Shown piece by piece: positions 1,157 to 28,158 of a DNA stretch of 30,621 bases (positions are counted from its first letter, which is position 1; every line of letters starts with the position of its first letter). The notes under the pieces were generated by a model. The model saw only the letters and a list, made by a program, of their open reading frames with translations. It did not search any database and was not told the DNA's origin. This stretch comes from a virus, in IMG/VR virus record IMGVR_UViG_3300007344_000147, positions 1 through 30,621 of that record. One strand, written 5' to 3'. The position numbers and the translations under genes were made by a program.

Positions 1157-1160
1157 AAGT

Positions 1161-1994: not shown

Positions 1995-2000
1995 TAGAAT

Positions 2001-2171
2001 CTATGTAAATTTAGATACGATTTCTTGTTGCTTGAAATATAATTTGACAAATGCTTTTGCAATATGCTTTGCTTCCTCAATATTTTCTATACTATCTATA
2101 TCTCTAGCAAGTTTCTCATACTCAAACATTTTACTAAAGTTTTCAAGTTCAACCAAATCCAAATCAATCAT
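2001..2171 (-). CDS. Small conserved hypothetical protein (56 aa) upstream of gp13
   Basis: I do not know its function. The frame runs from ATG at 2169-2171 to TAG at 2001-2003 and encodes a 56-aa, highly charged, helix-rich protein starting MIDLDLVELENFSK and containing a run of the type EAKHIAKAFVKLYFKQQE. Its start overlaps the stop of the 72-aa gene as ATGA, a classic coupled-translation junction, and its stop lies six bases before gp13. There is no Cys, signal peptide or membrane segment. Proteins of this size and pattern occur just before gp13 in T4-like cyanophages, as far as I recall. The overlap, the spacing and the gap it fills between two genes make it very likely to be real. A minor neck or tail assembly role is only a guess from position. 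Confidence 0.75.
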   Translation of the reverse strand: MIDLDLVELENFSKMFEYEKLARDIDSIENIEEAKHIAKAFVKLYFKQQEIVSKFT

Positions 2172-2386
2172 TTTAGAGTACTCTTTAATAGACTTTTAAT
2201 TTCATTAATATCATTTTTTAGAGAATTTAAATCATTTTCAATGTTCTCAATTCTTTTCACCTCACTTTGTTTTATATTTCGCATTTTAATATAATTCTCA
2301 TACTCATTAATGTTAGTATTAATGATTGATTTGGTTTTTTCGTCACGAATTAGATTTTCGTGACCTTCTATTTTACTATAGTTCAT
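2168..2386 (-). CDS. Small coiled-coil hypothetical protein (72 aa)
   Basis: This 72-aa protein has a likely coiled-coil C-terminal half: residues 42-70 read as regular heptads (RIENIENDLNSLKNDINEIKS), rich in Asn, Glu and Lys with Ile and Leu at core positions. The N-terminal part contains EGHENLIRDEKTKSIINTN, a pattern I associate with small proteins at this place in cyanomyoviruses. Its ATG overlaps the stop of the DUF4815 gene by one base (TAATG), and its own stop overlaps the next start (ATGA), so it lies in a chain of coupled genes. In T4 the gene in roughly this place is wac (fibritin), a long trimeric coiled coil. This protein is far too short to be fibritin and I see no foldon. A small oligomerisation or chaperone function is an inference. 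Confidence 0.8.
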   Translation of the reverse strand: MNYSKIEGHENLIRDEKTKSIINTNINEYENYIKMRNIKQSEVKRIENIENDLNSLKNDINEIKSLLKSTLK

Positions 2387-10758: not shown

Positions 10759-12276
10759 TTAGAATTGTAAAACGACTTTAATATCCTCTTTTTGATTTAA
10801 AGATCTGCTAATTGAAGGTCTATTATCAATGTATATAATATCTCCTGTATATTTTTTTACCTCTGGATTAGCAAATCCATTTTCAAAATTTTGACCAAGG
10901 TACACAGTACCATTATTTATTACCGTAGATATACCACTAAAATCATCATCAACTTCAATAATAATATTGTTTACGTCAATATTATTTTCACTGGTAAATT
11001 GAATTTGGGAATATCCATTAACAGAATTTGTTGATATTCCCGATGTTGTATACCCATATAATGTTCTATCTTGCCAATATTTTATAACTCCAGTTTCACT
11101 ATCATAAGAAACAACTCTTCCTACAGCAGTTCCAACACCAACAATATCTTGAGTGAATGTTGAGTTTGGTAAAATTGTTGCAGAATTAGGTCTCAATTTT
11201 AATGCATATACAGAACTTGCCTTTTGTTTATTTAAAATTGATGTTGAATCGAATGCTTCTGGATTTTGAACAATTCCAACTCTTGCAACTTTGTTGCCAA
11301 CAATAAAGTCAGGATCTCCAATATCATTTTCAATTCTAGAATAAAGAAGAACATTTGTTGAACCAAGTTCTCTGTAAATATCTGCTCCATGACCTCCTTT
11401 TGGTGGAATAATAACAGAAAACTTTGGAGGATCTGTTAAAAATAATCCAGAACTTTCTAAATCAATTGTTCCATAAGTATATCCACTTCCTCCATTAGAT
11501 ACGAAAACGCTATCAACAGTTCTGTCACTACCAATAATAATAGTTACTGTAGCACCTGATCCATCACCTTTAATTGGAATATTTTGATAAAGTCCAGGTG
11601 CACCTAAATTTCTACCTCTATCTAATATAGTAACAATCTTCAATTGTCCGCTTGAAGATGCATTTTCAATTACTGCAGAATAATCTGAGTTAGTTTTCCA
11701 ATCCCTAGGAACTGGAATAAAATTGGTGCTATCAAATTTAATAATTTCGCTAGGTCTTATTGTATAAAGATATTTCCAAATATAACCATCTCCACTTGTA
11801 CCAGCAGCCCTTGGTTCCAAATCTGTAAAAGTTGGTTCATCTAATGATGGATTTCCACTAGAAGATTCTGGAGTCGTTCCATTTTGGAGGCAAATATAGA
11901 CTCTATAATCTTGAGTTATAACATAATAATCGGAAGCATATAAAGAGGTGGAATCGGTTTGATTTGCACGTTTGTCTATACTTATATCATTACGATACAT
12001 ATCATAAGTTCTTCCAGACTCCCAATTTATTCTTCTTATAACAGGAGAAACATCACCAGGAGATATTTTTTTCAACGAAAACATAGTATCCCACACTGTA
12101 TTTTCTTCATTAAAATTATCTCTTGGAAAGGGTGGCAACTCTTCCCAAGTAGATAAGTATTCTGTTGAGTTTGACAAACCCAAAAATACATAATATGCAT
12201 TATCTGGAGAATTGACCTTTTCAATAAAACCAAGTGCATTAGATATCCTAAGTTGGTCAGTTATAATTGCCGACAT
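10759..12276 (-). CDS. 8: Baseplate wedge protein gp8
   Basis: gp8 is a wedge subunit that binds gp6 and gp7 and helps hold the outer baseplate. The 505-aa protein matches T4 gp8 at several points: SDYYVITQDYRVYICLQNG and GDGYIWKYLYTIRP correspond to the T4 YRCLDVPD and GDGYVWEYLFEIPP region, and the C-terminus GDIIYIDNRPSISRSLNQ corresponds to T4 GEMIYMENRPPIIMAMDQ. T4 gp8 is 334 aa, so about 170 residues have been added, mostly in the middle. Part of the addition (about 235-273) is a Gly-Tyr module with GDGSGATVTI and NGGSGYTYGT, as in gp14 and the gp7-like protein. A late promoter octamer lies 20 bases before the start, and the DUF4815 gene follows after 12 bases. The assignment is secure. 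Confidence 0.92.
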   Translation of the reverse strand: MSAIITDQLRISNALGFIEKVNSPDNAYYVFLGLSNSTEYLSTWEELPPFPRDNFNEENTVWDTMFSLKKISPGDVSPVIRRINWESGRTYDMYRNDISIDKRANQTDSTSLYASDYYVITQDYRVYICLQNGTTPESSSGNPSLDEPTFTDLEPRAAGTSGDGYIWKYLYTIRPSEIIKFDSTNFIPVPRDWKTNSDYSAVIENASSSGQLKIVTILDRGRNLGAPGLYQNIPIKGDGSGATVTIIIGSDRTVDSVFVSNGGSGYTYGTIDLESSGLFLTDPPKFSVIIPPKGGHGADIYRELGSTNVLLYSRIENDIGDPDFIVGNKVARVGIVQNPEAFDSTSILNKQKASSVYALKLRPNSATILPNSTFTQDIVGVGTAVGRVVSYDSETGVIKYWQDRTLYGYTTSGISTNSVNGYSQIQFTSENNIDVNNIIIEVDDDFSGISTVINNGTVYLGQNFENGFANPEVKKYTGDIIYIDNRPSISRSLNQKEDIKVVLQF

Positions 12277-12310: not shown

Positions 12311-15300
12311 TTATGGTTCATAATCATAATTTGAGAATTTCAATGGATTAACTCTTTGAACTATTGGATTATTATCAATTAAGAAAGATTTTGGATCAAT
12401 TCTCTTCGATAAATTAGAAATTTTGCCCCAACTAAATTGACCAATATCATTGATGTATGAAGCACCAAAGTCATCATATAAAGTAGAAACAGCACATATA
12501 ATCCTTCTGACCAAAATATTGCCATATTTGGGACTGAACTTATTAACAGTAACTGCTGGGAAAATAACTTGATATATATTATTCAAATTTGTAGAAATTC
12601 CTATAACATTTCCTGCATTGTTATAAGTTGTGTTTGGGGAATTTGCAATATTTGCATTGCTTATAGAAAAGTAGTCTCCTAGATCCAACTGAGATACTGT
12701 AATTGCAGATCCAACAACAGTATTTCCTATGAATGCAGAATCTCTAAGAATAGAATCTTCTGGAATATATAAATCAAATACCAAACCAGGTACAACAACA
12801 GGACCAATAGGAATACTTGCAATTGTAGTAACTCCAACAATTACTCCATAGTCTCCAAAGAAAGAAACATCTGGTATTACTTCAGTCTTAACTGTGGGTG
12901 GATCGATTGAAATTTGTGGAGTTTCAATTTGAGAAACTTCAAACTGTATTGGTCTTGATAAAGGATAATTTCTAAAAGTTTCACCAATTCCAGGATTATC
13001 AAATACATCAACTTCTAAAATATCACCAACAGAGTATCTAAATCCTTTATTCGTAATATTAATATTAGTCCTATCAATTATGAAGTTTTGAGTAATTGGA
13101 TCAACTAATAGGTTAACATCAGCAGATGCGTTTTGACCAATACCAGTCTTCGTTTTAAGTCTGGCAGAAGTAAAGGTACTGTTTGATGAATTTAAAGTTT
13201 CTGGAAAACCAAGACCTTCAGTTTTAACTCTTAAAGATTTTATTGGACCATAAGTATATCCTATTCCAGAATTTGTTACTGTTATAGAATTTACGGACCC
13301 AGAAGAAATAGTTGCTGTTGCTGTTGCAAACTCTGTAGAATCCAATGTTTCAATATCGGCAACAAATCCAGATTCGAACAGATTTATTTCTTCACCAACT
13401 TCAAATATATTCAAACTTGTTGGGATAACTTGAATAAAATTATCAGATGTAATTCCAGCAAGAACTCCAGAAGCACGACTATTTCTACCAAGCAAAAATT
13501 CTCCAATAGTCGCTGTCGAAATTCCAGTTGTGGATATAGTACCAACTATATTATCAATATTGGTCAATCCAATTCCAATTGGAGATGGATTTGTAAAATA
13601 TGGATATTGAATAGAAACATTTGGAGCAGTTGTATAACCTTCGCCACCATCAAGAACTAAAATGGAAGATACCTCACCATTAACAACCTGACATGTTCCA
13701 ATTGCAGGTGATTTTTGTTCTTGATCAATTATTTTAATCAAATTTCTTTCTTTATCCTCAATAGTTTCTGCTGCATTATCAAAGAATGGTTTCAATGTGT
13801 CAACATAAAATTCAGTTGAAGATGGAGTTATTTCTGATATTATTTTTGCGGAAGGATATATACTTGCCTCATTATAAACTCTATCTTTTCCAATAAATTG
13901 CCCATCAATAACAAGATCTTCAGTTTGTTTTGATAGTAAAACAGGTCTTAACAAATTAAAGTCTTCGACAATACCTTTGTCAGAGTAAATAAAAGTATTT
14001 GCAAAGTCGGATGCGACAATATCAGAAACAATTCTTTCATTCTCATTTAATTTTTTAACATCATTTGTAATAGTTAATGAATCTCCAATTTTAACATTTT
14101 CTAAAACATCAACATCAATTACATCAACATCACTATTTCCTCTATAGAATATTATAGTGACAGTGTCTCCAAATTTTGGAGGTTCTGGGAACACTATAAT
14201 ACTTCCGCCATTAAATTCATATCCTTCACCAGGAACTTGGAGAATATCATTAAATAGAACTATTAAAGTTGCTTCGATATCAATTGCAGATCCTTTTTTA
14301 GCTCTAATGGACTTAATTTCTCCATTGATTTTGATTGGGAAAATCTTTCTTCTATTATCGAATAAATCGTCGAATTTATCAATAACTTGAAGATCACCGA
14401 TAGACCAAGAAGAAAACTTAGTGTCATATACATCATCTATGAATATTTGGAATTCACTAAATGGATATTGCGTATTTGTGGGTATTCCAATCAATCCATC
14501 AGTTGGAATTGTTAATATCTCAAAAGGTCTATACCCATATCCATTATTTACAAATTTAAAGTCAATAACACTACCATCTTCACCAACTAATATATTTAAT
14601 TTTGCACCAGTTCCAATTCCTATAGAAGGAGAATCTGAACTATAAATTAATGGAATGTTATAATATCCTATAGGCGAATCAAATTCAATATTTGGTGGCG
14701 AAAATCTTCTGATAGTTACTACATCATTGGAAGTAATTGTTGATAGTGGACTGTCAAGTGTAATGAAAGTATTTCCAATTCCCGTAATTTTTACATTAAA
14801 ATCTGAATTTACTGTAATATAATTATTAATATTATTAATATTTTTAATATTATTAACATAAAGAACAGTTGATCCAGCAGCAATTGATTCAGATGCTCTT
14901 GTGTCAAATACATCATAGAAAGAAGTAAATGCAATTCCAGGATCAACAAAATTTATTGAAGTTGAAATTGATCCTGAAATTACAGTTGTAAATCCAATAT
15001 AATTTACGTCATAATCACCACTACTTTCCGTTCTAATTCCAATATCAACTATTTCTGTAGACAATTCTGTTAGTTTTACTGAAATTCTGGATCCTGCAGG
15101 AATATCTTCATCTAAAGCACTGGATAGTGTAATTGTAGAAGCAATTGGATCATATGCAGTAATTTCCACATCATTATATACCGTACCTATTCCAGTACTA
15201 CATAATGCTCTTGAAGAATATGGAAGTTTGTCAAATAAACTTTTTTCATCAACGACTTCTAAAGTAAATGTTCCAGAAACTGCAATAGAAGATGTAGAAA

Positions 15301-18300
15301 CAAAAATTTCTTTACCATCAACTAATCTATATCCACTTCCAGTAGAACCAATAGTTATGTTTGAAATTGATCCAGTATCATCAATAGTGACTGTTGCGCC
15401 AGCAGTTTTTAATGGTTGATATCCAGAACCAAATGTAGAACCAGTGCTAACTATTATGCCACCAACGGGAAGGTTTGTTGAATTAATATCATCAAGATTT
15501 GAAACTTCATCCTGTTGCTTAAAGACTATTGTTGTTTCTCCTCCAAGGTTTCGACTTAGTGTAAACGAACCTTCTGGATTACTATCCTCATCAAAAGGAG
15601 TTTGAAGTATATTTTTAACCAGAACAAACAGGTTTGATGTTGAAATACCAGATACTGGTAAACCTTTCTCCTTCAAAATAAACTCACTTGTAATTCCAGT
15701 AAATTCTTCAGAAAGACCATCTAATAAAATATTGTCAGAGTATGTTGGATTTTCTCCATTAATTTCTCCACTTTTATTAAATATTCTTCCGGAGAAAGAA
15801 GAACCAGTAGAAATTCCAACAAAATCAACTTCATCTGGTTTTGGATTTTTTGGTGTTATTGGAAGTGGACCATATGGAGGATCATAGAAATGGATTGTAT
15901 TGTCAACAATATTATAATCTCCAACTAATTTTGTACAAGCAGTACCAACAGTATGGACTCCTGGTAATGATCCCAACCAGAATCTATTAACAAGTAGTGT
16001 ATTCGTTGCACCAAATCCAACAACTTTAACTCTGAGAATTTCATTATCTACTTGGAAAACATCTCCACCAATAAACACATTTGGATTTGTTACTTTAACT
16101 CTCACATCTTTCAGTCCTAAAGGTTCTGCCAAAGTTGTTTCGAACGAAGTTGAAACAATAGGTGCCTGAATCATATTATCAATAGTAATTAATGATCTAG
16201 AATTTCCTCTCTTACCTGTTAATGTATGATTTGTTCCTGTCCCATAACTCACCAAATCCAGATATTCAGGAACAGATCTTAATGCCTGAGATGCCGATGC
16301 AGAAACTCTTATATTAATATCGTTTTCTTTAATAATGTAAAGAGTTGATGGAAGTATATCTGTTACACCTATTCCCGGAATATCAGTTAATGCAATTCTA
16401 ATCGGATCATCTCCATTTGGATCATATACAACTTCTTCTCCAGTACTAAAATAATGATTTGGTATTTTAATAGTGTCATCAAACAAATTAACTGAAACAA
16501 AACTAGAAGCATTGAAAACTCTTCTTAAAATGCGATTATTTTTATAGAATAGTTCAAATGATCTTCTAATTGCATTCTGAGTTCCAATATAATCTGTAGT
16601 ATATGAATTAATTTGAGACTCATTTAATGGTAATATAAGTTTATCTGGAGTTTCTGGTGCTTCCGTAATTGTCTTAACTCCCTGATAATAATATCTAATG
16701 CTAATATTTCTATCTGGCAGTGGAGTAAAGAATAATCTACATCTATTTCCTACAATTTCTGTTGTAATTGTTCCAAGTCCAACTAAAGAATCGTCACTAA
16801 TAACAGAACCAAATTGAGTTTCATATACATCCAAATCATTATTTACAGTTGTAAGTTCTAGAGAATTGTATATACCATTAGTCGTGTCTTCAATAGAGAG
16901 ATAATAATATGCACCACCATATACTAAAGTATGCTGATGAACTTCAACTTTTGTGGGAGAAGGACTTAATGGAATGTTTACAAATCCAGACTCTAATCTA
17001 GTATTACTTAATGCTAATAAACCTGATGTTGTTCTTGTAATATCTGCAACAGAAATATTTAAAACATTAACTTCTAGTGTTGATCCATATGCAACTGTAG
17101 GAGTTGCATTGACAATTAAATCTGATCCCAAGATTTCTGCACTATAAGTTGCAAATCCTATTGGGGGATTTACCGCTTCTGTATACAACTTTCCATATTC
17201 GGTTATGTAAACATCTGTTCCATTATGAGTGAGGTTTAGTTCTACAGATTCTCTAAATTGACCAGTTTGGTCATTTAAAGTAACTAGAACCTTGGAGGAT
17301 CTATTTGAAAGATGAACTGTTGATATTCCAATTGTATCAGTTGACCCGCTAGGAATAGTTGTTTTTTGGTTGTCTATAGTTACAATATTGCCCAATTCGT
17401 ATGATTCAGTTGTAGTTGATCCTAGACCAACAAAAGTATCGAACAAACTATATGAAACCAACTCAATATCAAAATCATTAAATTCAAAATCAAAAGGATT
17501 AAAAGTAATTTCTCCAAAATTTCCATTAATTGCAAATTCAAAATTACCAAGTTCCTCTAGAGTATCTAATCTTCCATATTGATTAACATATCCATTTAAA
17601 TCATCATGTATTATGGAAAGTATTCCAAACTGCCTTTCATTAAAGAACAATTTATCTTTAACGTATGTAAAATATTTTCTATACCTAGTTTGGAAGATTG
17701 GGAATCTATCTGCAACAACAAATTTTTCTTCCCTTGGAATGTTATTAAATTCGCCACTAAAATCATCTATTGTCAAAACTCTATTTCCAATAGACTCTGC
17801 AAAATCTTGAATTGGAATCGTATTGAATACAATTTGGTCAGATGCAATTCTTCCATCAAGCAAATATGCATTTTCCGAAACCATATCGAAATCCACATAA
17901 GAATTTAAATCAACTACCGAAATTAAATCGGAAACTGAGTTTAACTCTGAATATGAAATTGTGGTTTTATTTTCTTCCCCAGTAAAAGATTCAACCTCAA
18001 AAGTGGAGAATTTCTTAAATCCAGAAACATGATTGAGACTTGATACTGCATCTTCCCATTCAGAGAATTGTGTTTTGGATTTTAAGTCATATGAGAAGTA
18101 TTGATAATAGAAACTATCCTGAATTCTTTGACTATTATCATTGAGGAATCCTATATTAGTGTCCCAACCTCTAGTAACTTCAGCTGAAGAACTTGTCTTA
18201 TATTCAGATTCATAGAATTGTACTGTTCCAACAACTCCAGTTAAGTTTGAAGTCCTTCCTGTGATTTTATCACCAGTTACAAACTTATCATCGGATAGAA

Positions 18301-21300
18301 TGCTAACAAATTCATTATCCCTATCCCAATACTCAACAATACCAGTAAATCCACTAGTACTAGTGACTTGTTCACCAAGAATAAAATTATTTTTTTGGAG
18401 AGTTATATTGAAAGTTGGAAAATAACTTTGAGGAACAACATATCCAAAAGAATTGACTGGTCTATAATCTCCTGGAATTTCATCACCTTCCAAGTAGTCA
18501 GTCATATCAATTGAGAAACTTGCGCCACTGCCACCGATAGCTTTGTTTACATTTTCTACTGTAAATAAAGCATATCCATAATTTTCGGAATTGATTCCTT
18601 TTACATTTTGATTTATAGTAACCTCATTTGTAATAGGATCAAAAATAATATCATTAACTCTAAAGTTTTCCAATAAAACTTTATCTCCATCATCAAAAGG
18701 AAAATCTGCTTCACTGCTGAATGATGGATTTAGTATGAAAGTTAATACCTTCGAATCTACATTATATGATACACTTCTAACGCTGATTCCGTTTGAATTA
18801 TTGATTGGCACAATAATTGGAGTCTTATTAAAAAGACCAGAACTATTTTGAATAATTTCAACCTTATAATCTTCTGGAATAAACTTCAACTCTGATTGAG
18901 AATCAAACTCATTTGTCAATCCATCAAGAACTATTAAATTCGGTATAAGAGTATAATCTTTTCCAATAGTTAGCACTTCAATATCTTTAAATATGCTTAA
19001 TGGCTCTACATTAATTAATTGGGGCAAATTGCCAGTTGGTCTCAAGCTATAATCTACACTATAATCAAATCCAATATTTTGAACATCTACTTTTTTAACA
19101 AATCCAATTTTTCTACTGGAAGGAAATAATAATGCTCCGGTTCCAGTTTTTGAAGTAATTGATGTAATTCCTGGCAACACTCTGTACTTTCTATCTCTAG
19201 AAAGTACATCCACTTTAGAAATGGATCCAGTTGTTGAATATGAGGATGTATTATATGAAAGTGAGGAATTTGTTTTTAAGTAAGATGTTTTTTCTGGTCT
19301 AGTCGATATAAAATATTCAAAATAATTTGAACCGGTAGATTTAACTCTTTTTCTTCCAGAATATACACTATCCAAAACGAACAAAGTGCTGTCATTTTCA
19401 ATATTCTCATTATCAACCCTATATTCAGTTTTAGAATCCGGAATGTTTAAATTTGTATTTGCTAAAGATAACTTATAATAAAGTTTTTTTGGAGTATTTT
19501 CATTTATTTGCAGCCTTAATTTTGCAAAATTTTCAACTCCAATTTTACCAGATTTTGTTACAGTAAAAGAATCATCTTTTTCAGATTTTATAAACTTATT
19601 TACAAAATTTTCATCAGAATATAAATCAAAATCAAAAGCAGGAACAGAATTTGCGTTATTTACAAATGATAAAGATTTGTCAGTCAGGTCAAAGTTTATA
19701 ATTTGGTTTTTATATAACTCTATTGATGGATTTACTTGAGAAATTTCTCCAAATGAAGTAATTGTAATATCAATAACACTAGGATTTTTTGAGATAGAGT
19801 CCTGATAAGTTTCAGAAAGACTGAAACTATTATCATCTTTAACAACAATATAGAAAATTTTATTATTTTCTATTGAAGAAGTTAAATCATCTGTGGTGTG
19901 TATAACTTTTTCACCAGTAGAGTATCCATGATTTGAAATTGGAATTGTATTATCTATTGGATTTGTTTGAACAAATTCTTTAGGTTCAAATACAAGTCTT
20001 CTATTTTCATCATTATATTTTACAATAAAAGTTTTTTCTGAAGTATCTTTTACTTTAATATCGACAGATTCATTGTAAAATAGAGATGGGTCTTGTAAAG
20101 TTCTTACTCTTGCAACATTTTTGGCAATCTTACCAACCAAAGTATCCGAATTATCTGTTCTAATACTGTGATATTTTCTAGATCCAACGTTAGTATAATA
20201 AAATAAAGTTGCATTGGACACTGGATTCAGATATTCACCGGTTGTAGTTAACCCCACAATATCTGTGGAAATTCCAATATAATTTTGATCGAACACATAT
20301 GCATACAAATCACTAGGATCAGTCAAAGGAAATTCATTTATTTTGTCTTCCGACACTAAAATTTGAGATCCTGTATTATTACTGTATACAATTTTATCAC
20401 CAGTTTTAAGTCCATGATTTGGCAAATATATTTGCCTTGTATTAATATTTCTAACAATCCATTTTTGAACGTATGATGTTACTCCAGTCCCAACAATAGA
20501 ATTTATTTGTGTTGTGGATAAATCGCTTACATTATAGTCTATTGTTATAGAACTAAATCCAACATTAAGAACTTCAACTTCTTCAATATTGTCAAATTCA
20601 GTGTTAGATGATCCTGTCAAATTTATAAAATCGCCAATTTTGAAGTTTGATGAATTTATGAAATTGTTAAACACTAAACCAACTTTAGGTTCGGGATCTC
20701 CAGATACTAAAGTATCGGTAGAAATTCCAACTTGATAATTTAATGGATCAATTTCAAGTAAAATATTTGATATACTTCTTTCGCCTGTACCAATACCAAT
20801 AGAAACTGAAGGATCAAAATATATTTCTTTGTTTATTGGATAATTTTTATCCCCAAAAAATACTGGAGATGAAACATCATCAACAGCAGAAACTTCAAAA
20901 AATCTTGGTTTTTCAACTAAAATTGATCCAGCTGGATGGGAAGCAATTCCAGCAAGAGTTCTTAAAATTCTTATTTGGGAATTTTCCGGTATGACATTTA
21001 GAACTTTAAATTCCTCATCACCAATTTGATAAATGTCACTTGGTCTTATGGCAGATTCCTTTAAATTTCCATTTACTGAGATTAGTTTTGGTATAAAATT
21101 ATCTGAGATTCCTCCTACATCAATTTGTTCATTTAATATTAATTCGTTTGTAAATACAGTAATAGTTGAACTAATATCTTTTTTTCTATTTGTAAGCAAT
21201 TCATCCAATCCAATTATTGATATAAGGTCTCCATCATTTAGATTATGTGGATCAGATGATACGCCAATAACAGAATTTGAAAAACTAGAAGATCCAAATT

Positions 21301-24300
21301 CAACATTTGGTATTTTTGTGGATATTAAAGATATTTCCTCAACTTCTTTTCCGGAAATTTCGGATACTTCAGCAAAAGATTCATTTCCAAATTCATCTTT
21401 AGCAAATTTAATTTTATCACCTACAGAATAATTTTCTCCTCCGGATATTATAGTAACTTCATCAATTATACCTCTTTCAGTTCTAGATACTTTGTTTAAT
21501 TGATCTTCATAGTCAATAGGGTTGAATATAAAATCATACCCTGCAGTATCACTCAAAAGTTTATACTTATTTGTATTTCTAACCAATCCCAAATCTTCAA
21601 AAGATGCCGAATTTTGACTACTATCAGTAGTACTATCAAAATTAAATTCAATAGGAGTAGATTTGTATTGATTTCCAATAAAATATGGGAAAATAGGTCT
21701 TAAGTATTTTTGGCTGAATTGAGTATCAACTTCTCCCAATGTTGAAAAATACGCATAAACTCCATTAGGATACTCCGGAGTTACACATAATCTTCCATTA
21801 TATTCATCAAGATCACCACTATCAAAGTATGAATAATCTTCGACAAAAAATCCTATTGGGAAAAAAACAGTACTTGGTCTATTTGGTTTTAAAGAAATAG
21901 AATAACCAGACTGCATTTTTTTAACTAATCCACCTCCAACTGGATTAGTAAATCCAAATGGACCATAAATTGGATTTCCATCGTATGCCCAACCTATAAT
22001 TGGAGAGTGTGTAGTTGATTCAGAAGACTCATTTCCATTAAAATCTACTTCCAAATCTTTTTTATAAAAAATTTGATCAAGTTCTATTCTAGAAACTAAA
22101 AGATTTTCTCTTAATTTTCTTGGTGCATATGAATGTGTTAATTGAGTAATTCTTTCACCATCTTCATTTTTAGTATCATAAAGAAAAATATCATTTGATG
22201 TAATCTCATTTTTAAAGATCGATCTTTCTACATTATTTACATTCCATCTTTGTATAGAAATATCAAATGCTGCTCCAGATCCAGAAGATACAACTCTAAG
22301 AGAAGTTCCATTGGAATCATAGTTTATTCCTTCCGATGTAACTACTACATCAATAATCCTACCATTGGAAATTTTTGGTATCAAATTAGCACCAGATCCA
22401 ATACCATCAATTTCAATAGTAGGAGTGGAATTATAATTAGATCCACCATTAACAATCAATACTCTTTTAATTTGTCCGTTTACGATAATTGGACTTAACT
22501 CACATCCAGAACCATTTTTTACTTCAATTAATGGTTGTCTATTATAATTTAATATATTTTCCGATCCATAGTTAGATCCGCCATTTTCAATCGATGTTGA
22601 GAAAAGTTCACCAGAAAATGATGGTATAATTTTAGCACTAATATCATCTAAAGGTAGAGATCTATTTTTAAAATCGCCAACTATTTCAACTTTAATTGGT
22701 TGATAATTTAGAATATAAGGACCTACACCAAAATCAGTAAAATTGACAAATATGTTTCTATTTAAATTAAATTCTTTTGGATCTGAAGGATTTGTATTAA
22801 TTCCACATAGTCTAAACTCGTTATTATCAACAACGCTGACATAATATTCAGTATTTGTAGTTAATCCAGATATAGAAGTTCCTTCAGAGTTATATACAAC
22901 TATTTCGCCAGTTTTATATCCATGGTCATCAATTTTTATAGAATTTCTATAAAGATCTACATTTGAGTTTTTAAATGTAAGTTTTTTATTTGTATAATTT
23001 TTTCCAGATCGTATTACTCTAATAGATCCAATCTTTGATTTTTTATTAACACTTTTCAAATAATGTTTTCCGGGAGCAAGGGAAGTTAAAATTATTGGGT
23101 TTGTTTTATTGATAGAATCCAAGAATGTTCCATAAACTTTTAACGTAAAATCAGAATCTGGGGAGATAAAATAATCGACATCTCTTTGCAAACCTTCAAT
23201 TGGAACATCTGTATAATCATATCTAACCCTTTCACCCTCATAAAACTTGTGCTTTAAATTAAATGTGATAGTATAATTTGACAAATTTACTTGATTACTC
23301 TCAGCAATAAATTCCACAAAATGATCAAATACAGTCATATTTGGAACTGCTATAGCATTTGCACCATTTCCACCCGATATTCTTATTTCGGGAATGCCAT
23401 CATAATCAAATCCACCATCCAAAACTTCAATTTTATTCAGAGATCCTCTGATATGTGAAATTACCGATGCACCAGAACCTGATGAATCTATAATATTGAG
23501 AATTGGTGGATTTATAACATCATATCCACTTCCAAAAGATTTTGGTTCAACTTTATCAACAGATCCATAATATATAAAATCATTTGACTTATAATTTTGA
23601 ATTTCTACTCCATTGGCAAGAATGCCAATATTTCCAGAAGGAGTTAAACTTCTTTCATTTGGTTCTAATGGTTTTGCAATTTTTTTGAAAATATTTTTTG
23701 GAGATATTGATCTATTGAAATTAGATTGCTCATCATCAGTAGTATTCTGGAAGAAAATTAGTTCATTTGTAGATCTAAAAAATTTATTTTGGGACCCCAC
23801 CAATCGAGTTGTTGAGTTGGATAATCCAACATCGAGAAATATATTATTGTCAATATTATTTCTACTACTAGAAAGTTTTATTTGAGTCGAATTATTAAAT
23901 GATCCAAGAACTTTTGCATAATAAATTCCTTGATCAATATTTAAAGAATTTCCATCAGGTCCAGATTGATAATAAAGAGCATCTCCAGTAACAAATGAAT
24001 TTTTTCCAATATTTAAAATTTTATCAATTTTTTGAGAATCATTGGCATTAATTTCTTCAGTGATAAAAAAGTCTTCGCCAAGAGTTATAGTTTCATCACT
24101 TAATGCAATAGATTCTTTTCCATATTTTGGCAATGATTGGGAAGAAACATATAGCACATCATCTGTTCCTTTATATACATTTTGAACATCAGTAACATAG
24201 ATATCATTAGATTCTGGAAAAGTTTGAGAGTTGTAAGTAAACTTAAACTTTCCAGATTTTCTTTCAATTTTATATTTTTGAGAAGAATCAAAATTAAGAG

Positions 24301-25837
24301 GTAATGAAATATTTAAAGTGAAAATGTCTTTTACAGATTCAACAACCGCATCATAAGTCTTCAAAGGTCCAGTGATTGATGTTAGTATTGCTTCATCTCC
24401 AGCATAAAATATATGATCATCATACAGAGAGAGTGTATATATGCTATTTTGCTGATTACTAATTGAAATGGATTTAATATTATAAGAAGGTGATATATTA
24501 AATTTCCAATCATTGTACTTTGATTCTTTGAGATCTTTTCCCAAAGTTCTCAAATTAACTCTATTTCCACTAACAATATACCTAGAATTTGGATCAACTA
24601 CTGCTTCGGATAAAACCCCTGTAATTCTAAACTTGATAGGATTTTCGTCATCACCAAAAGTCAATCCACCTTCACAAGTATAATTCAAATAAATGTTTGT
24701 TTTCTTTGAAATGCTTCTTGTTACCAGACAACCTAAAAATTGATTTAAATTTTTTCTTTCATACGTAATTGTCTGGGTTGTATTGTCATCATAGTATACT
24801 ATGAGAGATCCATTCTTTTCTGGAAATCCATATGTACTATCTACAGTTATTTGAGTTGATCCCGGAACAACATCTTCAACAATTATTGTTTTTGGACCAA
24901 TTACAAATTCTCCATAGACTGATCCTCTCAAATTAATATCTTTATTAAAATCAAAATCAAGACCTAAGATATAATAAGTCTGTTCTTCTCTATTGATTGT
25001 TTCAACTTTATTGACAGTTCCATAAGCAGAAGAAATAAATTCTTTGCCATCTACAATTAGAGTATTTTGAAATATTGTAGTATTAACAAGATCTTTTGGA
25101 TCACCATCGATTGCTTCAACAACTAATTGCTGATTTTTTCTATATTGAGCATCTGAAGGTCTAATCAGATAATCCCTTGGTTTAATTACCTGAACATCGT
25201 CACCAAATAACGCTTTAAATAATATTTTATACGAAGCATCTGTTCCCTTTGCAGTATAAAAATCCTTTAATTGCTTTATCAGTATATTTTTATTGATTTT
25301 TAAGGAAGAACCGCTAAAAAAGGATCTATCTTCAAAACCTGGAGCAAACTGAGATTTTATTTTTTTAAAAAATTCATTAATGAATAAAATATTCAAGTTT
25401 TTAACAGTAGAAGAACTTGAATGCTTTTCTGCACTTGTTGATTCAAATTCTAATCCATTTTCATAAGAAGTAATGCCACTAAAACCTCTAATACAATCAT
25501 TGAAGGATGAATAACTTTTTGACTTGTAAAAAATAATTTCACCATCAATTTGAATCAATCCATGTGTATCAGGAAATCCCAATGTATTTTTAACAAAAAT
25601 GCTAGTGTCGGAAAAAGAAACATCCTTAGTTAAAGTTGTAGTTTCAATTAAATTAGTAAGATTGTCAAGTTTAACATACTGGTCAATATTTTGAAGTATA
25701 TCTAAAACCCCTCCCTTATACTCAAGTCCAGAATAATATTCTACAAATAGACTTTCAACTAGAGGATAATTTTCCCTAACGAAATTGGGAAGTTGGTTTT
25801 TTACAACATTACTAATTTTAATCCTTGATTTTTGCAT
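12311..25837 (-). CDS. 7: Giant gp7-like baseplate wedge protein with modular extension (4508 aa)
   Basis: gp7 starts wedge assembly in T4 by binding gp10 and gp8. Here the first 330 or so residues resemble the C-terminal third of T4 gp7 (1032 aa): DFYTAKGTDASYKILFK at about 191-207 matches T4 DFYSTKGIEASYKFLFK, with a preceding helical segment (LVESLFVEYYSGLEY). The gene also lies between 6 and 8, as in T4. The rest is mosaic and repeat-rich: modules of the type GFPDTHGLIQIDGEIIFY (about 72, 320, 3238), H-G-TG-V-Y modules (about 858, 968, 1804, 1967, 3125), Gly-Tyr modules (about 765-850, 1075-1200, 4066, 4190), a YHYH-family domain (about 1275-1390), and a tandem module pair (about 2830-3052). 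No signal peptide or membrane segment is apparent. The start is five bases after the gp6 stop. The gp7 core is well supported; the role of the extension is unknown. Confidence 0.85.
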   Translation of the reverse strand: MQKSRIKISNVVKNQLPNFVRENYPLVESLFVEYYSGLEYKGGVLDILQNIDQYVKLDNLTNLIETTTLTKDVSFSDTSIFVKNTLGFPDTHGLIQIDGEIIFYKSKSYSSFNDCIRGFSGITSYENGLEFESTSAEKHSSSSTVKNLNILFINEFFKKIKSQFAPGFEDRSFFSGSSLKINKNILIKQLKDFYTAKGTDASYKILFKALFGDDVQVIKPRDYLIRPSDAQYRKNQQLVVEAIDGDPKDLVNTTIFQNTLIVDGKEFISSAYGTVNKVETINREEQTYYILGLDFDFNKDINLRGSVYGEFVIGPKTIIVEDVVPGSTQITVDSTYGFPEKNGSLIVYYDDNTTQTITYERKNLNQFLGCLVTRSISKKTNIYLNYTCEGGLTFGDDENPIKFRITGVLSEAVVDPNSRYIVSGNRVNLRTLGKDLKESKYNDWKFNISPSYNIKSISISNQQNSIYTLSLYDDHIFYAGDEAILTSITGPLKTYDAVVESVKDIFTLNISLPLNFDSSQKYKIERKSGKFKFTYNSQTFPESNDIYVTDVQNVYKGTDDVLYVSSQSLPKYGKESIALSDETITLGEDFFITEEINANDSQKIDKILNIGKNSFVTGDALYYQSGPDGNSLNIDQGIYYAKVLGSFNNSTQIKLSSSRNNIDNNIFLDVGLSNSTTRLVGSQNKFFRSTNELIFFQNTTDDEQSNFNRSISPKNIFKKIAKPLEPNERSLTPSGNIGILANGVEIQNYKSNDFIYYGSVDKVEPKSFGSGYDVINPPILNIIDSSGSGASVISHIRGSLNKIEVLDGGFDYDGIPEIRISGGNGANAIAVPNMTVFDHFVEFIAESNQVNLSNYTITFNLKHKFYEGERVRYDYTDVPIEGLQRDVDYFISPDSDFTLKVYGTFLDSINKTNPIILTSLAPGKHYLKSVNKKSKIGSIRVIRSGKNYTNKKLTFKNSNVDLYRNSIKIDDHGYKTGEIVVYNSEGTSISGLTTNTEYYVSVVDNNEFRLCGINTNPSDPKEFNLNRNIFVNFTDFGVGPYILNYQPIKVEIVGDFKNRSLPLDDISAKIIPSFSGELFSTSIENGGSNYGSENILNYNRQPLIEVKNGSGCELSPIIVNGQIKRVLIVNGGSNYNSTPTIEIDGIGSGANLIPKISNGRIIDVVVTSEGINYDSNGTSLRVVSSGSGAAFDISIQRWNVNNVERSIFKNEITSNDIFLYDTKNEDGERITQLTHSYAPRKLRENLLVSRIELDQIFYKKDLEVDFNGNESSESTTHSPIIGWAYDGNPIYGPFGFTNPVGGGLVKKMQSGYSISLKPNRPSTVFFPIGFFVEDYSYFDSGDLDEYNGRLCVTPEYPNGVYAYFSTLGEVDTQFSQKYLRPIFPYFIGNQYKSTPIEFNFDSTTDSSQNSASFEDLGLVRNTNKYKLLSDTAGYDFIFNPIDYEDQLNKVSRTERGIIDEVTIISGGENYSVGDKIKFAKDEFGNESFAEVSEISGKEVEEISLISTKIPNVEFGSSSFSNSVIGVSSDPHNLNDGDLISIIGLDELLTNRKKDISSTITVFTNELILNEQIDVGGISDNFIPKLISVNGNLKESAIRPSDIYQIGDEEFKVLNVIPENSQIRILRTLAGIASHPAGSILVEKPRFFEVSAVDDVSSPVFFGDKNYPINKEIYFDPSVSIGIGTGERSISNILLEIDPLNYQVGISTDTLVSGDPEPKVGLVFNNFINSSNFKIGDFINLTGSSNTEFDNIEEVEVLNVGFSSITIDYNVSDLSTTQINSIVGTGVTSYVQKWIVRNINTRQIYLPNHGLKTGDKIVYSNNTGSQILVSEDKINEFPLTDPSDLYAYVFDQNYIGISTDIVGLTTTGEYLNPVSNATLFYYTNVGSRKYHSIRTDNSDTLVGKIAKNVARVRTLQDPSLFYNESVDIKVKDTSEKTFIVKYNDENRRLVFEPKEFVQTNPIDNTIPISNHGYSTGEKVIHTTDDLTSSIENNKIFYIVVKDDNSFSLSETYQDSISKNPSVIDITITSFGEISQVNPSIELYKNQIINFDLTDKSLSFVNNANSVPAFDFDLYSDENFVNKFIKSEKDDSFTVTKSGKIGVENFAKLRLQINENTPKKLYYKLSLANTNLNIPDSKTEYRVDNENIENDSTLFVLDSVYSGRKRVKSTGSNYFEYFISTRPEKTSYLKTNSSLSYNTSSYSTTGSISKVDVLSRDRKYRVLPGITSITSKTGTGALLFPSSRKIGFVKKVDVQNIGFDYSVDYSLRPTGNLPQLINVEPLSIFKDIEVLTIGKDYTLIPNLIVLDGLTNEFDSQSELKFIPEDYKVEIIQNSSGLFNKTPIIVPINNSNGISVRSVSYNVDSKVLTFILNPSFSSEADFPFDDGDKVLLENFRVNDIIFDPITNEVTINQNVKGINSENYGYALFTVENVNKAIGGSGASFSIDMTDYLEGDEIPGDYRPVNSFGYVVPQSYFPTFNITLQKNNFILGEQVTSTSGFTGIVEYWDRDNEFVSILSDDKFVTGDKITGRTSNLTGVVGTVQFYESEYKTSSSAEVTRGWDTNIGFLNDNSQRIQDSFYYQYFSYDLKSKTQFSEWEDAVSSLNHVSGFKKFSTFEVESFTGEENKTTISYSELNSVSDLISVVDLNSYVDFDMVSENAYLLDGRIASDQIVFNTIPIQDFAESIGNRVLTIDDFSGEFNNIPREEKFVVADRFPIFQTRYRKYFTYVKDKLFFNERQFGILSIIHDDLNGYVNQYGRLDTLEELGNFEFAINGNFGEITFNPFDFEFNDFDIELVSYSLFDTFVGLGSTTTESYELGNIVTIDNQKTTIPSGSTDTIGISTVHLSNRSSKVLVTLNDQTGQFRESVELNLTHNGTDVYITEYGKLYTEAVNPPIGFATYSAEILGSDLIVNATPTVAYGSTLEVNVLNISVADITRTTSGLLALSNTRLESGFVNIPLSPSPTKVEVHQHTLVYGGAYYYLSIEDTTNGIYNSLELTTVNNDLDVYETQFGSVISDDSLVGLGTITTEIVGNRCRLFFTPLPDRNISIRYYYQGVKTITEAPETPDKLILPLNESQINSYTTDYIGTQNAIRRSFELFYKNNRILRRVFNASSFVSVNLFDDTIKIPNHYFSTGEEVVYDPNGDDPIRIALTDIPGIGVTDILPSTLYIIKENDINIRVSASASQALRSVPEYLDLVSYGTGTNHTLTGKRGNSRSLITIDNMIQAPIVSTSFETTLAEPLGLKDVRVKVTNPNVFIGGDVFQVDNEILRVKVVGFGATNTLLVNRFWLGSLPGVHTVGTACTKLVGDYNIVDNTIHFYDPPYGPLPITPKNPKPDEVDFVGISTGSSFSGRIFNKSGEINGENPTYSDNILLDGLSEEFTGITSEFILKEKGLPVSGISTSNLFVLVKNILQTPFDEDSNPEGSFTLSRNLGGETTIVFKQQDEVSNLDDINSTNLPVGGIIVSTGSTFGSGYQPLKTAGATVTIDDTGSISNITIGSTGSGYRLVDGKEIFVSTSSIAVSGTFTLEVVDEKSLFDKLPYSSRALCSTGIGTVYNDVEITAYDPIASTITLSSALDEDIPAGSRISVKLTELSTEIVDIGIRTESSGDYDVNYIGFTTVISGSISTSINFVDPGIAFTSFYDVFDTRASESIAAGSTVLYVNNIKNINNINNYITVNSDFNVKITGIGNTFITLDSPLSTITSNDVVTIRRFSPPNIEFDSPIGYYNIPLIYSSDSPSIGIGTGAKLNILVGEDGSVIDFKFVNNGYGYRPFEILTIPTDGLIGIPTNTQYPFSEFQIFIDDVYDTKFSSWSIGDLQVIDKFDDLFDNRRKIFPIKINGEIKSIRAKKGSAIDIEATLIVLFNDILQVPGEGYEFNGGSIIVFPEPPKFGDTVTIIFYRGNSDVDVIDVDVLENVKIGDSLTITNDVKKLNENERIVSDIVASDFANTFIYSDKGIVEDFNLLRPVLLSKQTEDLVIDGQFIGKDRVYNEASIYPSAKIISEITPSSTEFYVDTLKPFFDNAAETIEDKERNLIKIIDQEQKSPAIGTCQVVNGEVSSILVLDGGEGYTTAPNVSIQYPYFTNPSPIGIGLTNIDNIVGTISTTGISTATIGEFLLGRNSRASGVLAGITSDNFIQVIPTSLNIFEVGEEINLFESGFVADIETLDSTEFATATATISSGSVNSITVTNSGIGYTYGPIKSLRVKTEGLGFPETLNSSNSTFTSARLKTKTGIGQNASADVNLLVDPITQNFIIDRTNINITNKGFRYSVGDILEVDVFDNPGIGETFRNYPLSRPIQFEVSQIETPQISIDPPTVKTEVIPDVSFFGDYGVIVGVTTIASIPIGPVVVPGLVFDLYIPEDSILRDSAFIGNTVVGSAITVSQLDLGDYFSISNANIANSPNTTYNNAGNVIGISTNLNNIYQVIFPAVTVNKFSPKYGNILVRRIICAVSTLYDDFGASYINDIGQFSWGKISNLSKRIDPKSFLIDNNPIVQRVNPLKFSNYDYEP
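16680..17350 (-). repeat. Diverged tandem module pair in the gp7-like protein
   Basis: Two adjacent protein segments share a pattern. Copy 1 (about residues 2830-2915) has SSKVLVTLND, then ELNLTHNGTDVYITEYG, then ATYSAEILGS. Copy 2 (about 2951-3052) has PTKVEVHQHT, then ELTTVNNDLDVYETQFG, then GTITTEIVGN. The order and spacing of K-V-x-V, E-L, D-V-Y-x-T-x-(Y/F)-G and E-I-(L/V)-G elements agree, although the DNA has diverged. I read this as an old internal duplication of a beta-rich module. Confidence 0.55.
21675..22012 (-). other. YHYH-family domain in the gp7-like protein
   Basis: Residues about 1275-1390 contain HSPIIGWAYDGNPIYGPFG, followed by FFPIGFFVEDYSYF, DLDEYNGRLCVTPEYPNG and FPYFIGNQYKS. 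These are the hallmark blocks, in order, of the YHYH domain family found in marine bacterial and cyanophage proteins of unknown function. The tetrapeptide that names the family, usually after PNG-T, reads YAYF here, so both the expected first-Tyr-His and final His positions are altered. This is a domain inside the larger gene. Confidence 0.75.
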
Positions 25838-25842
25838 TTCTA

Positions 25843-27756
25843 TTATTCTCTAATTAATTTTCCATTCGTATAACTTGAGGTTGTAATATAGTTACTTCCG
25901 GAAATATCATTTCCGGAAGAAATATTGTCAGGAACAGAAGTGACTGTTAGTTTATTAGTATCAAGTTGTAAATATAAATCTTGCAATCCAATGACGTCAT
26001 TGGATTTTGGAGTCACTGAAATTTCAACAATGGATTCTCCACTATCTATAACAGTTGAAACTATGTTAATTGGATTTAAAAGTACCTCACCTTTCACATA
26101 ATCTACAGTTCCTACAGATTGTCTGACCTGTATTGGATTTTCGGATTCTGTTGATAATTTAAACAAAAATAGATTTCCAGTTTTCTGGTCTGGATTTGGT
26201 TTATCTGCAATATAAACTACGCCAGTAATTCCAGAAACAGAAAAACCAGAAGTTTTTATGTTGTATCCACTTAAACTATTGATATGAATTTGGTTACCAA
26301 AACAAATTTCATATTCTGCAAATTGATTAACTGATGCTCTAAAATCCCTTCTTAAAGAAACTTTTGTAATATTTGAAGTGATTGACTTGTCACTCTGATC
26401 AATTATATTCAAAACTTTACTATATTTAAATCTGATATCACTCTGATCAGACTCAAGAGATTTTGAATATTTTTCTAAATTGGAAATTACTTTATTTTTT
26501 GGAGTTTGACCATTATCAGTTAAGTTTTCATTATAATAAATTGTACTATCAAGTTCAATGTATAAGTATTTTAAATCAATAACATCAACTACAATTCCAG
26601 CAACAGTATATTTTCTAAGCATATTCTTCAAATTCTGAGCTGCACTTGAAGATAAAAATGTTCCACTTTGAGGTTTGACCGCGACAAAAACTTTTCCATA
26701 TCTTGGCGGATTTAAATCTTCTCCACCAAAAACGTTTACAGATTCTAATTCTGGAAAAATTCTTGGAACAATTGCCTTGAAGTCATTTGCTGTTACTGCT
26801 CTATTTTGTGAAGAGTAGTATTTTGGCGAATAATTTCTAATTGATTGAACAGATTCAATCTCATTACCACCATAAGATGTAGTATTTGTTTCAATTGTGG
26901 AGATTCCCCTAGTAACTAAACCAGTATTAGAGTTTAATTTTCCAGTAAAGGTAAACTGAGATAGATTATTTCCAAGTGGTCCATTAGAAACAACGTATGA
27001 TGCTTTAATTAAATTATTATTTTCTAATTTATTTCCAAAAATTCCATCTCCAAAAATTAATTCATATTTTTGATCGGCAATTTCTTGAATGAAAAATATC
27101 TTTGAATCTGATTCAACATCAATAATATCTTGTGCTAACTTATATCGAGTTGAAATCGTACTTAAAGAATTTTTAAATACAGACACTGATAAAGTGCTTA
27201 TGTCAACATTTGCATTGTCAATAATATATCTTTGAGGTGGATTAGGTATTAATGAACTTACGAAAAACTCACTTGATAACAAAGTTCCTTCACAAATTTC
27301 AATATTATCAAAGAATGCAATTCCATTTACAACAGGAACTGTAATATCTTCTTTTATGACAAAAGTATAACTTTCCCCACTAAAATCAGATTCTGTAGTG
27401 CATACAATTCCTTTAGATAGAGTTACAATTCTTGGAATTGATGGATAATCAGATACATCAACGAAAAATGATATATTTGCTTTTGCTGCAGTTCTTGATC
27501 TTGGAACATAACCAATATTTCTTGCTAGTGAAACTACATTTTCTCTAAGAGTTGCACTATCAATAAAAACTTCACCGCTAACCATGTTAGCATTGTATGA
27601 AGAGATGTATGTATTATAAGCAAGAATATCTATCAAGACCGACAAATTCGATCCTTCAAAATCATAATCCGTAAAATCTGAACTTGATCGAAGGTAATCT
27701 TTAATTGATGACCTTATTTGATCAAAGTCTAAGTCTGTAAAATTTATTATTGCCAT
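25843..27756 (-). CDS. 6: Baseplate wedge protein gp6 (J-like)
   Basis: gp6 forms the ring that ties wedges together in the inner baseplate and belongs to the Baseplate_J superfamily. The protein is 637 aa; T4 gp6 is 660 aa. The N-terminal part has FTDLDFDQIRSSIKDYLRSS, DYDFEGSNLSVLIDILAYNT and SLARNIGYVPRSRTAAKA, the conserved J-family pattern. A central block, NRAVTANDFKAIVPRIFPE at about 318-336, leads to VNVFGGEDLNPPRYGKVFV, the usual J-family signature. No large insertion is evident, unlike its neighbours gp7 and gp8. The ATG directly abuts the gp25 stop (TAA then ATG), and the gp7-like gene starts five bases after its stop, so gp25, gp6 and gp7 are almost certainly cotranscribed and coupled. 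The assignment is firm. Confidence 0.95.
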   Translation of the reverse strand: MAIINFTDLDFDQIRSSIKDYLRSSSDFTDYDFEGSNLSVLIDILAYNTYISSYNANMVSGEVFIDSATLRENVVSLARNIGYVPRSRTAAKANISFFVDVSDYPSIPRIVTLSKGIVCTTESDFSGESYTFVIKEDITVPVVNGIAFFDNIEICEGTLLSSEFFVSSLIPNPPQRYIIDNANVDISTLSVSVFKNSLSTISTRYKLAQDIIDVESDSKIFFIQEIADQKYELIFGDGIFGNKLENNNLIKASYVVSNGPLGNNLSQFTFTGKLNSNTGLVTRGISTIETNTTSYGGNEIESVQSIRNYSPKYYSSQNRAVTANDFKAIVPRIFPELESVNVFGGEDLNPPRYGKVFVAVKPQSGTFLSSSAAQNLKNMLRKYTVAGIVVDVIDLKYLYIELDSTIYYNENLTDNGQTPKNKVISNLEKYSKSLESDQSDIRFKYSKVLNIIDQSDKSITSNITKVSLRRDFRASVNQFAEYEICFGNQIHINSLSGYNIKTSGFSVSGITGVVYIADKPNPDQKTGNLFLFKLSTESENPIQVRQSVGTVDYVKGEVLLNPINIVSTVIDSGESIVEISVTPKSNDVIGLQDLYLQLDTNKLTVTSVPDNISSGNDISGSNYITTSSYTNGKLIRE

Positions 27757-28158
27757 TTATCGGGTTGGCTGTAATACAAAAACTAACTGTTGTGGTGGAA
27801 CATCTATACCTATAATGTTATATCTAATAGTAACATTAAATTCATTGTTATCAAAATTAGGTTCAACCAAAACTTTCGTTAAAGAAACTCTTGGTTCATA
27901 AGATCTAATAGTACTTTCAATTTGAGATTTAATTGTACTTGCAGAAATTGCATCTATATTTTCAAACAGCGACTGGCTAATGTCAGATCCAACATCTGGA
28001 TTAAAAAATCTTTCCCCTGGTAGGGTTAATACTAAATTACGAACTGACCTAGCAATCGCCGTTTCATTCTTAAGAGCCAAAACATCGAAAGTCAATGGAC
28101 TGACCTGAAGAGATAAACTAATATCCTTGAATGATTTACTAATTCTCTCTAAAGGCAT
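27757..28158 (-). CDS. 25: Baseplate wedge protein gp25
   Basis: gp25 sits beside gp6 and gp53 in the inner baseplate and seeds sheath assembly; it is the phage counterpart of the type VI secretion TssE protein. The 133-aa length equals the T4 protein (132 aa) almost exactly. The key motif LPGERFFNPDVGSDISQSLF lies at 47-66, and the family pattern I-x-x-YEPRVSL follows at about 84-94. The motif LxTxxGERxxxPxxG is diagnostic. There is no strong Shine-Dalgarno sequence before the start; a possible late promoter octamer lies 25 bases upstream. It stands at the head of the wedge operon gp25-gp6-gp7. Despite the family name 'lysozyme-like', no catalytic residues are expected. Confidence 0.95.
   Translation of the reverse strand: MPLERISKSFKDISLSLQVSPLTFDVLALKNETAIARSVRNLVLTLPGERFFNPDVGSDISQSLFENIDAISASTIKSQIESTIRSYEPRVSLTKVLVEPNFDNNEFNVTIRYNIIGIDVPPQQLVFVLQPTR

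Follow-up and report, generated by a model that had tools for sequence, protein, structure and literature searches.

The wedge of the T4 baseplate contains gp7 together with two copies of gp6. With regard to cyanophages, according to a passage in PMC7029224, cyano- and pelagimyophages lack T4 gp7 and VrlC apparently stands in for it, and a passage in PMC3037559 names gp7 among the non-cyanophage core genes. For another cyanophage, PMC10966104 reports a (gp31)2-gp32 wedge; the one cyanophage tail structure encountered in our literature searches, that of A-1(L) (PMC10966104), is of another type, and none of the titles found in them announces a baseplate structure of a T4-like cyanophage. Here we analyzed a viral DNA stretch of 30,621 nucleotides (the window; IMG/VR virus record IMGVR_UViG_3300007344_000147, positions 1 to 30,621), in which one minus-strand frame encodes a protein of 4508 amino acids (aa), referred to below as the giant, whose N-terminal region (the anchor) resembles T4 gp7.

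Sequence relationship of the giant to T4 gp7

According to the open reading frame (ORF) listing, the giant frame (12311..25837) starts with ATG and occupies 13,527 of the 30,621 bases of the window (44%). Its translation contains no internal stop, in agreement with the uninterrupted 13.5-kb frame described in the initial annotation, which gives no strand, and the plus strand of the same interval, read in one frame, is rich in stops. An orthologue of 4516 aa on contig L093 was aligned with the giant over 4501 codons with 22 gap columns, giving differences of 0.205, 0.122 and 0.407 at codon positions 1, 2 and 3. Since the two genes differ mainly at third codon positions, we consider the frame to be translated and not a product of chance.

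In a single BLASTP comparison of the first 420 residues with T4 gp7, residues 192-217 matched 733-758 with 14 of 26 identical (E=2e-6). A family profile of 47 sequences covering residues 1-740 was searched against 177,635 distinct PDB sequences, and the top two matches were T4-type gp7 (E=1.3e-5 and 3.2e-5), the next match standing at 0.038; heat-labile enterotoxin chains, which appeared in the anchor-profile search at E 0.038 to 0.078, were rejected as chance. Using hhalign, the anchor profile aligned with T4 gp7 alone over 86 columns (probability 92.9%, E=3.8e-7). Against six T4-type gp7 sequences, residues 184-294 were placed on T4 residues 725-814 over 90 columns (probability 96.9, E=1.9e-10) with a score of 83.1, versus 16.8 for the reversed control and 13.3 to 21.3 for 20 column shuffles. 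In the reverse search of the T4 region against phages, at least one cyanophage (S-SCSM1, E=7e-3) was present among the best 40 of 1432 records. Plain phmmer of the whole giant against the PDB gave no match, so family profiles were needed.

Judged by its sequence, the N-terminus of the giant (residues 1 to ~410) is gp7-like and homologous to the C-terminal third of T4 gp7, and the claim of the initial annotation that the first few hundred residues resemble this third was borne out by BLASTP, the PDB profile search and hhalign. The accompanying claim that the N-terminal two thirds of T4 gp7 are missing holds as far as neither hhalign of residues 1-740 nor BLASTP of the whole protein matched that part, searches by which remote forms could be missed.

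AlphaFold2 (AF2) models were obtained for residues 1-740 (model 1) and 715-1690 (model 2); the modelled span ends at residue 1690. In the VIA-align comparison, T4 gp7 chains were found at rank 14 of 50 (5iv5_BJ 638-844 on residues 1-410 of model 1, Z 8.6, 125 residues, root-mean-square deviation (rmsd) 23.5) and at rank 45 of 50 (5hx2_A 765-842 on residues 233-409, Z 8.0, 78 residues, rmsd 2.2). We count these weak rows because they are collinear and in the same register as the sequence match.

VrlC and the neighbouring genes

The genes of the window follow one another downstream on the minus strand in the order gp25, gp6, giant, gp8, DUF4815 protein, gp13-type and gp14-type (Table 1). The giant lies between gp6 and gp8 in the window, and the annotation of nine isolates places it there too.

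The printed account would make T4 gp7 missing in these phages, VrlC its replacement and the giant some other structural protein, and it has the statement in PMC7029224, the core-gene passage of PMC3037559 and the empty phmmer search on its side. The gene named VrlC in P-HM1 and VriC in S-SRM01 comes after gp8 and is homologous to that of the DUF4815 protein of the window, which, compared as far as the sequences were fetched, is 38% identical to S-SRM01 VriC over 1143 residues and 36% identical to P-HM1 VrlC over residues 1-526. In the comparison with VrlC/VriC, the sole match of the giant itself was to P-HM1 VrlC, over 51 residues at E=0.001. BLASTP at E<=0.01 did not match the DUF4815 protein to T4 gp7, in contrast to the giant, and the 11 PDB matches of that protein include no gp7; a VrlC-family profile was not searched against gp7. 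VrlC may well be a baseplate protein, as the window copy has a solved relative (9euf_0, a DUF4815 domain-containing protein, E=1e-46), for which our literature search found no paper. Overall, we regard replacement of gp7 by VrlC as very improbable.

Because the giant matches gp7 and the VrlC homologue does not, we conclude that the gp7 of the cyanophages examined is the giant and not VrlC. Sequence comparison thereby settles which protein is gp7 in these phages, and the printed absence in PMC7029224 is contradicted for cyanophages. We further consider it reasonably probable that the giant, as gp7 of a T4-like cyanophage, consists of a wedge anchor and an outward arm that builds the baseplate periphery.

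No gene for gp9-gp12 is present between gp8 and gp13 in the window, where the DUF4815 protein and an ORF of 72 aa are the sole occupants. In the DUF4815 protein, a linker rich in Pro and Lys precedes a glycine-rich domain (PF21722, residues 1724-1935). A phrog_1574 protein weakly resembling glycosyltransferase families is encoded at 29302-30102, upstream of the baseplate genes.

Family, virion evidence and modules of the arm

The best stretch of the phrog_2885 match pairs residues 2-4108 of the giant with positions 6-3989 of the 4179 in the profile, with 2928 bits for the protein. The first 400 residues matched 466 of 50,697 phage records at E<=1e-5, all with less than 60% identity (by name, 372 Synechococcus, 61 Cyanophage, 24 Prochlorococcus, 5 Marine and 4 Methylophilales), and the last 800 residues matched 174 phage records. 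Many of the matches listed carry the annotation 'baseplate wedge initiator'. As the records of the relatives are mostly named Synechococcus, Cyanophage or Prochlorococcus, the window most likely comes from a T4-like cyanophage.

Nine isolate products, seven unbroken (S-SRM01 3895, Bellamy 4067, ACG-2014f 4225, S-CAM7 4314, P-HM1 4446, P-SSM2 5195 and S-SZBM1 6619 aa) and two pairs, span 3895-6619 aa. Large proteins are therefore known at this cyanophage locus, as the initial annotation had said, and the giant, of ordinary size, belongs to a known family and is not new in itself. Three further families that match the giant (phrog_4406, phrog_701 and phrog_19630) are filed under 'head and packaging', a label that looks misplaced because the giant is encoded between gp6 and gp8.

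Absence from virions had been named in the initial annotation as a result that would speak against it, and for one relative the reverse is reported. Table 1 of PMC9146016 gives 71 peptides and 13.5% coverage for S-SZBM1_208, a 6619-aa 'baseplate wedge initiator', from CsCl-purified particles; the passage of that paper on wedge proteins omits S-SZBM1_208. The S-SZBM1 giant gene adjoins gp6, and its product resembles the window protein over the anchor, the YHYH region and a portion of the C-terminal block. Presence in virions is thus reported for a giant of the phrog_2885-type family in one relative, S-SZBM1. S-CREM2 ORF122 (5.8 kb), with 91 unique peptides in Table 3 of PMC10665884, may be a shorter relative of the giant.

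Beside its giant, S-SZBM1 (L254:14260-19232) encodes a YHYH protein standing alone, a gp9/gp10_N protein and a protein of 615 aa, and the beginning of this third protein matches that of the half split off in Sf-FS3; peptides for all three are given in Table 1 of PMC9146016.

The long extension after the gp7 core described in the initial annotation amounts to ~4100 residues and is beta-rich where modelled, that is, to residue 1690. Module hidden Markov models (HMMs) were obtained as iterated profiles on a set of 16 proteins, and the resulting features are given in Table 1.

Table 1. Coordinates of the giant, its parts and the neighbouring genes in the window.
Feature	Residues	Position	Strand	Basis
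Giant gp7-like baseplate wedge protein, 4508 aa		12311..25837	-	ORF and translation; phrog_2885 'baseplate wedge subunit'
gp7-like anchor; helices 8-55 and 149-211, then beta domain	1-409	24611..25837	-	hmmsearch, hhalign, AF2 secondary structure, VIA-align
Best sequence match to T4 gp7 725-814 (DFYTAKGTDASYKILFK)	184-294	24956..25288	-	hhalign
Small beta-barrel module between anchor helices	66-148	25394..25642	-	Iterated HMM E=2.2e-32; beta in model 1
Second copy of barrel module, within anchor beta domain	316-395	24653..24892	-	Iterated HMM E=2.3e-24
FCCH-like domain 1	605-675	23813..24025	-	HMM E=1.6e-9
FCCH-like domain 2	849-928	23054..23293	-	HMM E=1.9e-22; structure match
FCCH-like domain 3	960-1042	22712..22960	-	HMM E=1.2e-23
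Pair of GxGY hairpin repeats	1080-1162	22352..22600	-	HMM
YHYH-family half domain	1272-1367	21737..22024	-	PF14240 E=1.5e-22, profile 87-182 of 193
Optional segment, filled in 0.34-0.41 of aligned relatives	1681-1800	20438..20797	-	Conservation profile
FCCH-like domain 4	1797-1869	20231..20449	-	HMM E=6e-14
FCCH-like domain 5	1958-2031	19745..19966	-	HMM E=8.2e-19
First boundary	2698-2716	17690..17746	-	19/75 related contigs end one gene, start another
Second boundary	3054-3083	16589..16678	-	Contigs L075/L110 and L111
FCCH-like domain 6	3116-3204	16226..16492	-	HMM E=1.3e-19
Third boundary (S-SSM7 alignments overlap site)	~3274-3281	15995..16018	-	S-SSM7, Sf-FS3; gp9/gp10_N gene in gap
Conserved C-terminal block	3713-4080	13598..14701	-	25-47% identity in isolate products
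gp25		27757..28158	-	PF04965 E=1.6e-15
gp6 (baseplate wedge)		25843..27756	-	PF21379 E=1.6e-16; phrog_219
gp8		10759..12276	-	PF09215 E=2e-18
DUF4815 protein, 2786 aa, = VrlC of other cyanophages		2386..10746	-	PF16075
gp13-type head-tail adaptor		1161..1994	-	phrog_211 E=8.1e-44
gp14-type neck protein with GxGY repeats, runs off record		2..1156	-	PF11649 E=1.4e-31; repeat HMM

Residues 313-385 of model 1, around the second barrel copy, resembled the tail tube of phage Mystique in VIA-align (9n71_A; Z 10.7, rmsd 1.7, 72 residues). In model 2, which has a predicted local distance difference test score (pLDDT) of 77.8, a barrel near residues 1562-1645 resembled a baseplate chain of phage JBD30 (Z 10.8, rmsd 1.8, 77 residues), and residues 837-931 resembled the FCCH region of Uba1 and Uba6 (best rows Z ~9, rmsd 2.1-2.2, 75-76 residues). 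The predicted FCCH likeness of the six domains rests on structure; the E1 FCCH family PF16190 gave no match in the giant at E<=0.01 and a sub-cut-off match in S-SSM7. Among predicted viral structures, the best match of model 2 was the Bellamy wedge initiator, a member of the same family.

The GxGY repeat matched the giant nine times at E<0.05 (eight at E<=0.0011 and one at 0.04). It was also observed in the gp14-type protein (five), gp8 (one) and the DUF4815 protein (one, over 14 residues only); through its occurrence in the giant, the gp14-type protein and gp8, neck and baseplate proteins of the same phage have one module in common. Other searches contributed little: against the PDB, the profile of residues 715-1690 gave one match (E=0.67), that of 2716-3660 three chance-level matches (a fusion glycoprotein match at E 0.31 was rejected as chance) and that of 3660-4508 none; NCBIfam gave no match for the giant, and a PF03906 scan of the window gave none either, but its controls were silent too, making it uninformative.

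The initial annotation took the function of the added part to be undescribed, which did not hold for the YHYH region, as a Zn site is predicted and a metal hydrolase proposed for it in PMC7824862. This region is among the best conserved parts of the giant (0.57 identity) and is kept in the distant P-HM1 and S-SZBM1, with H1235, H1277 and D1286 invariant in 42 rows, as might be expected if the giant were mainly a host-surface adhesin or an enzyme (a YHYH metal hydrolase) with a secondary structural role. The Pfam match to PF14240, at 81 bits against a curated cut-off of 25, nevertheless covers the second half of the domain only. In an alignment of the giant with 16 members of the family found in bacterial genomes, 15 of which have Y-H-x-H in their first half, the place of this signature was taken by L1233-T-H-S1236, and both signature histidines were replaced in all ten phage rows in two alignment modes. 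Because of this replacement, the Zn-hydrolase idea appears weakened for the YHYH region of the giant, and we consider the adhesin or enzyme explanation unlikely as compared with gp7 acting as wedge anchor and peripheral arm.

The 16 family members were taken from 148 genomes of a single phylum searched for the family, 14 of which gave a match, and from four further genomes; together these yielded 24 fetched loci, 17 of them with a readable domain; one locus was dropped for lying at the same place as another (L250 and L245), and one of the rows used (L233) is itself phage-like. The Y-A-Y-F motif of the second half was rejected as a lost signature, since bacterial members carry Y-A-Y-F too.

Split genes and the proposed baseplate periphery

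Whether the giant is cut into separate units, the other doubt raised in the initial annotation, received a mixed answer: it is one frame in the window and two genes in some relatives. Residue 2715 is covered by 75 related contigs, of which 56 are unbroken and 19 stop and restart. At nine junctions read base by base, the last residues encoded by the first gene are ...TSFNI or TSFSI, and an ATG comes 5 to 8 bases later; over all 19 split contigs the spacers measure 5 to 15 bases, counting L053 as 6 (198 in the ORF list), and the second gene lies in another frame in seven. L053 was counted as split, though its second gene is interrupted soon after the start, and L023, with a 254-base gap after which the second half resumes in another frame, was not.

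The 19 split contigs include near-copies, and ten were kept in a tree built by a quick method from 49 rows after near-copies and stateless rows had been dropped (PHM1 and SSM7a were flagged as long branches). These ten non-redundant split rows form one clade (Shimodaira-Hasegawa-like approximate likelihood-ratio test, SH-aLRT, 99). The tree needs three changes in all; if just its well-supported branches are considered, no more than two are forced for the fused group.

A second boundary, near residue 3083, occurs in L075 (the same contig as L110) and L111, which are 66% identical over the searched region. Ten isolates were read, of which seven are unbroken and two are split at a third boundary, S-SSM7 into 3007+3001 aa and Sf-FS3 into 2995+2492 aa. 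In these two, the gap holds a gene of 340 and 341 aa (L083:29039-30061 and L107:11043-12068) that carries PF07880, the T4 gp9/gp10 N-terminal domain (E=4.2e-11 and 9.8e-11). The tenth isolate, S-SKS1, was set aside: its apparent four-way split (L105, 1897-14283) was rejected, as the reading continues in another frame at the junctions and frameshifts are likely. Part of the giant is unannotated in the deposited S-SKS1 record.

We infer three separate fissions because the boundaries lie at different residues, which is a stronger argument than the tree. What is new here is that some relatives have the chain divided between two genes, with the cut at one of three different sites; neither the split genes nor the module make-up of the giant was found described in the parts of the literature consulted, which does not prove that no description exists. 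Given the two-gene relatives, the arm can probably do without being a single polypeptide. Only one piece bears the anchor, so other contacts would have to hold the second piece, provided that both are present in the virion.

Separate genes also suggest that the parts can probably function as separate chains, and the giant could then be made as one chain and cut by a protease, with anchor and arm separate in the virion and the arm provided with its own attachment site. The 71 peptides of the 6619-aa relative, as given in PMC9146016, do not tell whether the chain is whole; one frame is nevertheless kept in most contigs (56 of 75 at the first site), and we consider protease cutting improbable.

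For the giant as anchor and arm of gp7, we propose the following arrangement. In each wedge the anchor would join both copies of gp6, in the manner of T4, and the remaining ~4100 residues would run outwards as an arm forming the baseplate periphery. The mass added to six wedges may also alter the outer shape of the baseplate, as the initial annotation supposed. The arm would carry fibre-docking and host-contact domains and would do the work of the first two thirds of T4 gp7 and of gp9-gp12. Because some relatives encode the distal part as a separate gene, it is probably held by module-module contacts and not only by the peptide chain. A more far-reaching version, which we put forward only tentatively and rate below the simpler proposal, would see the whole cyanophage baseplate periphery as one exploded gp7, an anchor with an exchangeable, self-assembling string of modules that replaces the T4 gp7 domains and gp9-gp12, can be cut into genes at several places and can take up a gp9/gp10-type fibre-connector gene.

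Several observations weigh against the anchor-and-arm proposal. Model 1 has a mean pLDDT of 66.7, with the anchor helices mostly below 50; neither model had a PDB match in Foldseek at E<=0.001, and the T4 gp7 rows of VIA-align, near chance at Z 8.0-8.6, rank among unrelated small barrels. The structure models cover residues 1-1690 of 4508, and the location of the arm in the baseplate is deduced. The record is a 30.6-kb fragment, and gp9-gp12 could sit elsewhere in the genome. Finally, 12 of the 19 second genes at residue 2715 are in frame behind the stop codon, so that read-through could still give one chain there. The two-piece relatives lend themselves naturally to asking which part attaches to the wedge and which makes contact with the host.

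Among known systems, the giant can be set beside T4 gp7 (1032 aa; PDB 5hx2, 5iv5), with which it shares the profile alignment of residues 184-294 and the placement between gp6 and gp8, and with which the cyanophage anchor is collinear by structure over ~200 T4 residues, although this match is weak. T4 gp7 has extra domains before the shared region, whereas the cyanophage protein has ~4100 residues after it and two barrel modules inside it. The E1 enzymes Uba1 and Uba6 are alike in the fold of one small domain, FCCH, with only 12-16% identity in the best rows, and no ubiquitin chemistry is implied for the giant. The cyanophage giants of phrog_2885 have the same operon place, anchor, YHYH region and conserved C-terminal block as the window protein, from which they differ in sequence (25-47% identity in the C-terminal block) and in optional segments. 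In S-SSM7 and Sf-FS3 the chain is overall as in the window, but it is encoded by two genes with a gp9/gp10_N gene between them.

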